DNA from: Candidatus Peregrinibacteria bacterium RIFOXYB2_FULL_33_20
GTDB taxonomy: Bacteria > Patescibacteriota > Gracilibacteria > UBA1369 > GWF2-33-10
Reading direction: 5' to 3'
NCBI GenBank assembly: GCA_001788835.1
Contig: MFXK01000013.1
Location: 1 to 64,000 of the forward strand
DNA: 64,000 bases
Below, one piece after another: positions 47,901 through 50,866 of this stretch. A program made the position numbers and the translations under genes. Below the pieces are notes generated by a model that ran no database searches, had not been told where the DNA came from, and was given only the letters and a program-made list of their open reading frames with translations. Position 1 is the first letter of the stretch. Every line of letters starts with the position of its first letter.

Positions 47901-48530
47901 GGGATCATTTCTAATTTGAAAAAAATTTTTACCCGTAGTAATGAGTTAATGCTGACTTTCACAATTGAAGATCCGACTGCCAGTGTTGATTGTGTAATTT
48001 TTCCGAAGTATTTAAAAAAAGTCGGTAATATTTTCAAGGAAGATGAAGTTATCATTATGAATGGAAAGTTGGACATCAGAGGTGATAAACTTCAATATAT
48101 GTGTAGTGAGGCCAAAATTATCTCCTTGCAAACCATGATTGAGAATGCTAAAGAAATGGGTTGTTATGATGCCAATGAAAAAATTGCCTTTTTGGGCAAG
48201 ATTAATTTTGACAATAAAGAGGCTGATATTAATGAATCATTAGATAGTGTTAACGAGTCAGAACCGGAACAGATTTTAACTGATATGACTTCTAATGGCC
48301 ATATAGAACTTGATTTGGAGCCATATTTGATTGAAATTCCTATGAATGCCAGCAGTCAACAAATGTTAGCTTTAAAAGAATTTTTGACGCAAAATCAAGG
48401 GAAATCCAGAAATGTAAAATTAAAATTACCAAATGGGCATTTTTTAAATTTACCTGTTCAGGTTGATGTGAATAGTGAATTTGAAATGAAAGTTGCTGAA
48501 ATTTTGGGAATGACTCAGGGGATGATTTAG
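44949..48530 (+). CDS. dnaE: DNA polymerase III subunit alpha
   Basis: [91 protein letters not shown]. Confidence 0.97.
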   Translation: [1193 protein letters not shown]

Positions 48531-50866
48531 GGGGAGGGGATTAAACTAGCTGGTTCTAGAGGAAAGTTTTTTAGCAATTCCAGATCTTGAATCGTGATTT
48601 TGCCGACATAAAGTTTTTTCATCCTATCCATTATGGTGTTTTGTTTAATTTCAGGATTTTCATTCTCAACGCTAAAATATTTTTTTATTTCTTGATAACC
48701 GGTGAAATAAACTAGATTTTTGGTGAATGAAGTTTTGATAGTAGTATTGATCAGTCCTCTTTTTACTTTGACGCAAATTTTCCAGGATAGCTCTTCTGAA
48801 ATATGATAAGTATCTTTTAGATAATGAAATAATTCGCAGAAAGTCATTTTTTTGCCAAAATAGATAGCAATGGCGGTGATAGCGTGTTGAATGTGTTTAA
48901 TGCCTAGCGGGACAGATAGTTTTTCTTGATTATATATGGCTAAACCTTCTTCAGTGGCCAAATATCCTGCCGTACCTCGTTCAAAAATTCCATATTTCTG
49001 TTTGCGCCCATTTTCTAATCGGAAAATATGAGTGTCAATTTCATGAGCAATAACTGCTTTGAGCCTATTTTCCGTGAATAAGGCGTTTTTGTTCAAAAAA
49101 ATTGTGTGGTCTTTGTTTACTTGGATATCTGCTGGAGATTCTTCACTTACAACAATATCCCATTTGTTTAGTTTTTTTTGGTTAAGATATTTGTCCAAGC
49201 TTTTGATAATATCTTTGAAATTGATGAATTTTGATTTGTCAGGATGAAATTGATTGTTTTCTATGTAATCAAGGGCTGATTTATATATGTACCGGTTGGC
49301 AATTCCATATAGTTGCTCAGAATAAGCTCCAAAATCCAAAGTATTTATGGATTCAATCAAACTAATTTTTTTGTTAATTTCAGTGATTTTATTTAAATAT
49401 ATTGGCAATAATACATGATCAACTTCTCTGGGAATTTTGTTCAGTTCTTTTCTTAATGAGTCGAAGTCGAAGTTTGGTGTTTTATAAACAAAATGAGGAG
49501 AAATGGTGGGATTTTGAAAAAATTTGGTTTTTTCTTCAATTAGATTAAGAGGCTTTAAATGAGATAAAAGTTTAATTTTACTATCAATTTCAAAGATTTT
49601 TTTATCAATATTAATAATGATTTTTTCATTAAGATCTTTAAAAGTATTGCTATTTAAATTAATATGAGAAGGATCAATTAAAAAGTCTTTTAAATACTGA
49701 TAAGAAAGGATCACACTATAACTTTTACCACTAAAATCAGCTTTCTTGAATTGCAGCTTCAATCTTTTTCCTTTAATAATAACATTAATAACTTCTTCAT
49801 CGCCTACCACCAGATTGCGGTCAATTTCATTGCTATCGTTTTCGAAACTGACTTTGGCAGTAGCTTTGATATGTTTCCCACCTAAAATTAGAATTGGTTC
49901 ATAGATGCCAATAATTTCCTTTTTACTGTGTTTATTCGAAATTAATTTTTGTGAAAATAAAGTTTTGGCGATTTCTATACCTTGGGCAGGGTTTAAAACT
50001 TTCAAATCTTTGACTTTTTCTAGTCTGACCTTAAGCGGGGCTTTATTGGCTATTTGTATGGATAATCCCGCTCTAGCATTCACTTCCAGTACCTTTACGC
50101 CGTTTTTTGTCATTGCTAAATCCACAGCCAGATAACCGATATTGCTGACTTGTTGAATTTTGGCGGCCATTAATAGGATATTTTCCCATTTAGGTATTTT
50201 AACTTCTTCGATTTTTAATTGATTGGGTAGTTTGGTAATGAATTGGTTATGCCTGACTCCATAAGTGCATTGACCTGTGCCAATATCTATACCGATGCCA
50301 ATGCCTCCCATATGCAAATTAGCTTTGCCTTCAGATTCTTTGGTGGGCAATCTTAACATGGCGATAACTGGGATTAAATTAAAAACGATAATCCTAATAT
50401 CTGGCAGGCTGTTTGTTTCCAATAAGGGTTTAAAAAAAGGATCGGATTCTAATCGTTCTTCGATGATCACAGTATCACTCAATCCAGATATAGCGTACTT
50501 CCCATCTACAATATCAACACAGTGTTTATAGAGATCGTATTTGGAGATTTTATAACCATCGCTTTCAATAAATACATCATTTTTTTTATCTTTGATGATT
50601 AAAATTCCACTGCCGCCATAGCCTTTGTTGGGTTTAATAACGAAGCTTGATGGCAGGTCGTTAAAATTAAAATTATTTAAAGATTTGTGATTAGCAATCG
50701 TTGCATATAATTTGGCCACGCTTAAATCTCTCATTTGCAAAAAATTTTTAGTAAAAATTTTATTATCAGCAAATTTTTTATTGCTGACGGAATTATATTT
50801 GGCGATATACAGCAAATTTCTGGCATTCATGCCTAAGATTTCTCGTGATGTAGTTAGAAAAGACAT
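48527..50866 (-). CDS. Fusion: RimK-like/alpha-L-glutamate-ligase-like ATP-grasp + DUF1704 (MATCAP-type) metallopeptidase
   Basis: N-term REILGMNARN, FVIKPNKGYGGSGILII, VLEVNARAGLSIQIAN; C-term AVIAHEIDTHIFRLENGRKQ (HExxxH) and ATEEGLAIYNQE. Confidence 0.82.
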   Translation of the reverse strand: MSFLTTSREILGMNARNLLYIAKYNSVSNKKFADNKIFTKNFLQMRDLSVAKLYATIANHKSLNNFNFNDLPSSFVIKPNKGYGGSGILIIKDKKNDVFIESDGYKISKYDLYKHCVDIVDGKYAISGLSDTVIIEERLESDPFFKPLLETNSLPDIRIIVFNLIPVIAMLRLPTKESEGKANLHMGGIGIGIDIGTGQCTYGVRHNQFITKLPNQLKIEEVKIPKWENILLMAAKIQQVSNIGYLAVDLAMTKNGVKVLEVNARAGLSIQIANKAPLKVRLEKVKDLKVLNPAQGIEIAKTLFSQKLISNKHSKKEIIGIYEPILILGGKHIKATAKVSFENDSNEIDRNLVVGDEEVINVIIKGKRLKLQFKKADFSGKSYSVILSYQYLKDFLIDPSHINLNSNTFKDLNEKIIINIDKKIFEIDSKIKLLSHLKPLNLIEEKTKFFQNPTISPHFVYKTPNFDFDSLRKELNKIPREVDHVLLPIYLNKITEINKKISLIESINTLDFGAYSEQLYGIANRYIYKSALDYIENNQFHPDKSKFINFKDIIKSLDKYLNQKKLNKWDIVVSEESPADIQVNKDHTIFLNKNALFTENRLKAVIAHEIDTHIFRLENGRKQKYGIFERGTAGYLATEEGLAIYNQEKLSVPLGIKHIQHAITAIAIYFGKKMTFCELFHYLKDTYHISEELSWKICVKVKRGLINTTIKTSFTKNLVYFTGYQEIKKYFSVENENPEIKQNTIMDRMKKLYVGKITIQDLELLKNFPLEPASLIPSP

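Follow-up and report, generated by a model that had tools for sequence, protein, structure and literature searches.

A single gene of a Peregrinibacteria genome joins an ATP-grasp ligase domain to two peptidase domains of unrelated kinds, one retropepsin-like and one of the MATCAP family, and the question is what the two peptidase domains do for the ligase. The gene lies in a window of 64,000 nt, which is the whole stretch of contig MFXK01000013.1 from Candidatus Peregrinibacteria bacterium RIFOXYB2_FULL_33_20 that was analysed. We will argue, with a probability of roughly 55%, that the protein serves as the catalytic subunit in a ligase/trimming module of Rlo-like type, in which a MATCAP-type carboxypeptidase has displaced the retropepsin while the old domain was kept in a non-catalytic role.

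The three-domain chain and its outer domains

The open reading frame is intact and uninterrupted from ATG to stop (Table 1). A survey of the domain order in CPR, proposed in a preliminary description of this DNA, finds the same three-domain chain in at least 61 distinct genomes among the Patescibacteria sampled, which excludes chance or an assembly error as its origin. The terminator-like hairpin stands between this gene and the one directly upstream (50973-57854, minus strand), whose product is a secreted-looking surface protein of 2293 aa with six DUF4215 repeats and an SdrD_B-like domain.

Table 1. Positions in the window of the 779-aa gene, its domains and motifs, and the adjacent hairpin
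Feature	Position	Strand	Basis
779-aa gene, ATP-grasp + retropepsin-like + MATCAP	48527..50866	-	domain matches; a single reading frame in 61 distinct genomes
RloC-type ATP-grasp ligase domain, residues 7-306	49949..50848	-	PF14397, TIGR02291
Degenerate retropepsin-like domain, residues about 313-408	49643..49930	-	profile match to unfused DTGA-bearing domains
Lost catalytic motif, SFEN at the DTGA position, residues 340-343	49838..49849	-	alignment
MATCAP/DUF1704 metallopeptidase domain, residues 421-767	48566..49606	-	PF08014, TIGR02421, PDB 7z5g/7z6s
HEIDTH zinc-binding/catalytic motif, residues 608-613	49028..49045	-	sequence
EEGLA motif, residues 639-643, predicted third metal ligand E640	48938..48952	-	sequence
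GC hairpin then T run, intrinsic-terminator-like	50921..50956	-	read directly from sequence

The N-terminal domain matches ATPgrasp_ST (PF14397; Pfam, hmmscan) over residues 16-286 with E 3.4e-60 and 204 bits against a cut-off of 31.4. It also matches the NCBIfam model TIGR02291, 'alpha-L-glutamate ligase-like', with E 2e-75, the score of 253.6 bits lying below the equivalog cut-off of 314. The domain is of the RloC (TIGR02291) type and not RimK proper; the earlier assignment of the first ~300 aa to an alpha-L-glutamate-ligase-like ATP-grasp domain stands. The Mg2+ site, which the same description had marked for checking, is in order, the eight ATP-/Mg-binding residues K36, K78, E136, D156, R158, D249, E261 and N263 being invariant in all 61 fused chains. 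For RloC ligases as such, we found no published report of in vitro activity in open-licence full text.

At the other end of the chain, Pfam assigns residues 454-767 to MATCAP (PF08014, formerly DUF1704; E 8.3e-43, 147 bits against a cut-off of 27), so that the earlier reading of HEIDTH and EEGLA as signatures of this family is borne out. The match to the NCBIfam model TIGR02421 QEGLA has E 4e-47 and a score of 161.2 bits, which is below the equivalog cut-off of 338.65, and residues 598-729 match the structures of human MATCAP1. Both the HExxxH and the EEG motif are there, with H608, E609, H613 and E640 as the metal-site residues, E640 being the counterpart of E316 in human TMCP1 (PMC10499314). 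HExxxH is kept in 60 of the 61 fused chains, the remaining one being split by a frameshift. With catalytic residues conserved in both outer domains, there is good support, at the sequence level, for the idea of a single chain that could both add terminal amino acids and take them off. Since a search of the whole genome yielded no second MATCAP and no PF05618 peptidase, this domain is the sole candidate eraser of these kinds, if the module trims.

A strong match to the family is found in 113 of 381 genomes of the phylum. The gene is present in 40 of 59 related genomes and forms one long reading frame in all but two of them, one in which it is split over contigs (G038) and one in which it is fragmentary (G018). 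Fused chains dominate in the order and class of the window's genome, and the protein of most other lineages is shorter, at ~430-515 aa; named relatives are metagenome-assembled genomes labelled Candidatus Magasanikbacteria and Gracilibacteria. Coverage outside Patescibacteria consisted of one pattern scan together with plasmid and phage sets. One scan of genome contigs with the window protein as query gave matches in Patescibacteria only, viral contigs gave no relatives, and the phages gave a single MATCAP relative. This is a protein of Pseudomonas phage Y1 (OQ572403.1:63569-64519; 24% identity, E 3e-10).

The middle domain and the loss of its active site

The domain between the ligase and MATCAP was described beforehand as retropepsin-like but without an obvious DTGA, and both parts of that description hold. 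In unfused relatives, the domain that follows the ligase has a clear DTGA (e.g. AKIDTGADSTSID) and a C-terminal IIGRRDLKxFLVDP motif, and PF05618/gag-asp protease is found by Pfam in some family members. Profile comparison aligns the fused middle domain with this unfused domain at a probability of 99.8% (E 2e-28), and the unfused domain with Legionella RloA at 97.5% (E 5e-12). Because the two matches chain together, the middle domain of the window protein is a retropepsin by descent. Compared with RloA directly it reaches 40%, in an alignment limited to the C-terminal GR..L..F.IDP segment, and a profile search of the PDB gives only a weak match to the retropepsin family (9g58, E 0.11). A Pfam match of this region to CBM60 was rejected as a chance match, and the AlphaFold models, built from a four-sequence input, are too poor for structural support (pLDDT 44.6 for the full length and 40.2 for the middle domain).

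The motif of active clan AA peptidases, D[TS]G[AS], is absent from the window domain; in RimB, the catalytic aspartate D31 is essential (PMC11957791). The second, C-terminal retropepsin signature is conserved in the fused chains (G 92%, F 93%, D 97%), from which the fold seems to be maintained.

We now consider how the motif is distributed relative to MATCAP. It occurs in 49 of 51 unfused chains that have no MATCAP gene nearby, and in none of the 61 fused ones. Where an unfused chain has MATCAP directly downstream, half of the cases keep the motif (5/10), and the other five, which form one clade, read NTGR or NTSR. Unfused chains with MATCAP nearby on the opposite strand have it in 2 of 14 cases, most of the 14 reading DTGI or DTGV. 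A second, independent fusion (L110, L119) has also lost DTGA and reads DTSR. Changes of the motif in our sample are thus limited to the fused chains, the NTGR/NTSR clade and a DTGI/V/E lineage, most members of which have a divergent MATCAP gene nearby. Seven of the 61 fused chains keep D[TS]G, followed by a residue that is uncommon at the fourth position, which counts against our reading.

The fusion has originated two or more times: by parsimony, an ATP-grasp domain tree requires two changes for it, forced by the starred branches, and five for the loss of DTGA. With two fusion events only, the association between fusion and loss is not significant (independent pairs, median p 0.5); it is suggestive, based on few independent events, and not statistically established. 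The tree is midpoint-rooted, and gain and loss of the motif are indistinguishable from the rooting alone. Loss is nevertheless the natural direction, since RloA/RimB and the unfused forms, which are widely spread, have the motif intact.

Relation to the rlo and RimB/RimK modules

In Pseudomonas aeruginosa, the rlo operon encodes the secreted retropepsin RloA, the inactive transglutaminase RloB with its 7TM part, and the ATP-grasp protein RloC (PMC12239564). Loss of the RloA peptidase is rescued there by loss of RloB or RloC (PMC12239564), and ligase and peptidase therefore act in opposition. RloA cleaves polyglutamate in vitro, the same kind of substrate as that of RimB (PMC12239564). RimB takes glutamate off polyglutamylated RpsF and has a stimulating effect on RimK (PMC11957791). 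The rlo composition is also annotated on a plasmid of Legionella adelaidensis.

In the relatives of the window gene, as in P. aeruginosa and other Gammaproteobacteria, one operon encodes the RloC-type ligase, a 7TM protein of RloB type and a retropepsin-like domain. A gene for an RloB-like protein (PF14402, 7TM_transglut), often with a PKD ectodomain, lies directly upstream in nearly all loci. It occurs in 110 of the 381 genomes, all 110 of which also have the ligase, while three genomes have the ligase only. In the window's own genome, the RloB-like gene is on another contig (C21), away from the 779-aa gene, which is a further point against our reading. RloB was reported to be 96% restricted to Proteobacteria (PMC12239564), and the 110 sampled Patescibacteria genomes extend the range of RloB/RloC well beyond that group.

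Several features set the window chain apart from rloABC besides the phylum. The 7TM protein has PKD in place of the inactive transglutaminase, MATCAP is added, and no secreted DTGA retropepsin is found, the retropepsin-like domain being placed behind the ligase within the chain and having no signal peptide. Both peptidase domains would lie on the same side of the membrane as the ligase, unlike the secreted RloA peptidases of Pseudomonas, which also counts against our reading. With RimB/RimK and RimBK, the likeness is the presence of an ATP-grasp ligase and a retropepsin in one chain, which in RimBK are the writer and eraser of polyglutamate. The published RimBK hybrid (PMC11957791) has its active retropepsin N-terminal to the RimK ligase; this order is absent here, where the sequence is ligase, degenerate retropepsin, C-terminal metallopeptidase.

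The window chain has known relatives, being a variant form of the ligase/peptidase module that rlo represents in Pseudomonas, and to speak of an undescribed modification system, as was done initially, goes too far. For the ligase-retropepsin-MATCAP architecture itself, no description was found in the open-licence full text searched. A 2009 survey of amidoligases by Iyer et al. is said to discuss ATP-grasp/peptidase operons.

In mammals, enzymes of the MATCAP/TMCP group take off C-terminal Tyr/Glu and trim polyglutamate chains to shorter ones (PMC10499314), and the biochemistry that we found for MATCAP/DUF1704 in open-licence full text concerns only these tubulin-trimming eukaryotic members. 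With MATCAP1/TMCP1 and TMCP2, the window protein has in common the peptidase domain with its HExxxH and EEG motifs; it differs in the fusion to a ligase and in its bacterial host, and its peptidase role is a prediction. Proteobacterial TIGR02421 proteins also have the MATCAP domain and an ATP-grasp gene nearby, and their QEGLA motif is shared by most relatives, the window chain itself having EEGLA. Unlike that chain, they have an N-formylglutamate amidohydrolase fused (Vibrio) or adjacent (Pararhizobium). In Pararhizobium, the MATCAP gene also adjoins a glutathione-synthase-like gene, and MATCAP is thus paired with an ATP-grasp ligase more than once. The Vibrio case is a QEGLA protein of a Vibrio sp. 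HDW18 plasmid (L197:4110-6101).

Proposed function and alternatives

What we infer for the direction of trimming, the displacement, the localisation and the envelope role is the following. The ATP-grasp domain would use ATP to add an amino acid, probably glutamate by analogy with RimK, to the C-terminus or a side chain of an acceptor, which may be a protein, a peptide or an envelope component. The MATCAP domain would remove C-terminal residues from the product, such that the chain length is set within one polypeptide, and the separately encoded RloB-like membrane partner, with its PKD ectodomain and 7TM part, may couple the activity to the cell envelope. Ancestrally, trimming would have been the task of the retropepsin domain, joined to the ligase in one chain. 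MATCAP would have come first as a neighbouring gene, as in the unfused ligase-retropepsin genes that have it directly downstream today, and would later have been fused and taken over the trimming; the retropepsin domain, its catalytic aspartate motif lost, may have been retained as a structural, dimerising or product-binding part. Such a displacement is plausible, since the two unrelated peptidases (RimB/RloA and MATCAP/TMCP) have polyglutamate-type chemistry in common. We give about an even chance to a reading in which MATCAP displaced a retropepsin eraser two or more times and probably once more in a third lineage that has no fusion, with the pseudo-retropepsin that was left behind serving in regulation or in binding of the product.

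The same anatomy would serve if MATCAP acted before the ligase, trimming a C-terminus to expose the acceptor that the ATP-grasp domain then extends, and never erasing the product of its own chain. Mammalian MATCAP enzymes do take off not only added Glu but also the C-terminal Tyr/Glu that the gene itself encodes (PMC10499314). However, the unfused ligase is joined to a retropepsin, and polyglutamate is an in vitro substrate of RimB/RloA, peptidases of that type (PMC11957791, PMC12239564); as it is such a retropepsin that MATCAP replaces, action of both on the same substrate is favoured, and we regard trimming before extension as unlikely. It is also doubtful that the product is a small molecule or a polymer, cyanophycin-like or another poly-amino-acid, instead of protein tails. 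A second ATP-grasp gene, combining cyanophycin synthetase and RimK-like parts, does accompany 40 loci of the wider context, usually directly downstream, and bacterial MATCAP/QEGLA genes adjoin the glutathione-synthase-like and N-formylglutamate amidohydrolase genes mentioned above. But nearly all of these 40 loci are unfused (L094-L178), the only two fused loci that the gene adjoins belong to the second fusion lineage, and elsewhere in the window's genome there is no more than a partial relative. Finally, the fusion could be a mere transcriptional or assembly convenience between domains with unrelated jobs, the retropepsin decaying by drift independent of MATCAP. The two fusions and the non-significant pairs test leave room for this, yet the active site was lost in both fusions and in one adjacent-gene clade, the outer domains show no variation in their catalytic residues, and the motif changes are confined as described above, which makes such an explanation very improbable.

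The proposed displacement ties MATCAP and the rlo modules together. The lost catalytic residues of the older middle domain suggest that, in a bacterial modification system that has been little studied, one trimming enzyme has replaced another, and the fusion predicts that a bacterial MATCAP trims the product of the ligase, which is testable with one recombinant protein. If this is true, the enzymes that trim tubulin tails gain a bacterial setting, in which a MATCAP domain erases the product of an ATP-grasp ligase.

As to a candidate target of RimK type, bS6 of the window's genome has an extended charged tail that ends in DPDSLGL, with no Glu end, which speaks neither for nor against such a role. 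The same genome has three successive RimK-like ATP-grasp genes of ~290-305 aa on another contig (C39:19852-22150), possibly a separate peptide-modification locus. Within the window, an 838-aa protein (40346-42862, plus strand) consists of two tandem D-Ala-D-Ala ligase modules, each matching the N- and C-domain, and a cysteine-rich protein of ~580 aa with zinc-ribbon-like CxxC pairs at its start (19484-21241, minus strand) has a paralogue at L179:7710-9452. Two other loci (L111:3212-5779 and L148:2911-5676) encode a ligase and DTGA retropepsin with a long C-terminal extension, 856 and 922 aa in total, and in the latter Pfam identifies the extension as a further ATP-grasp domain.
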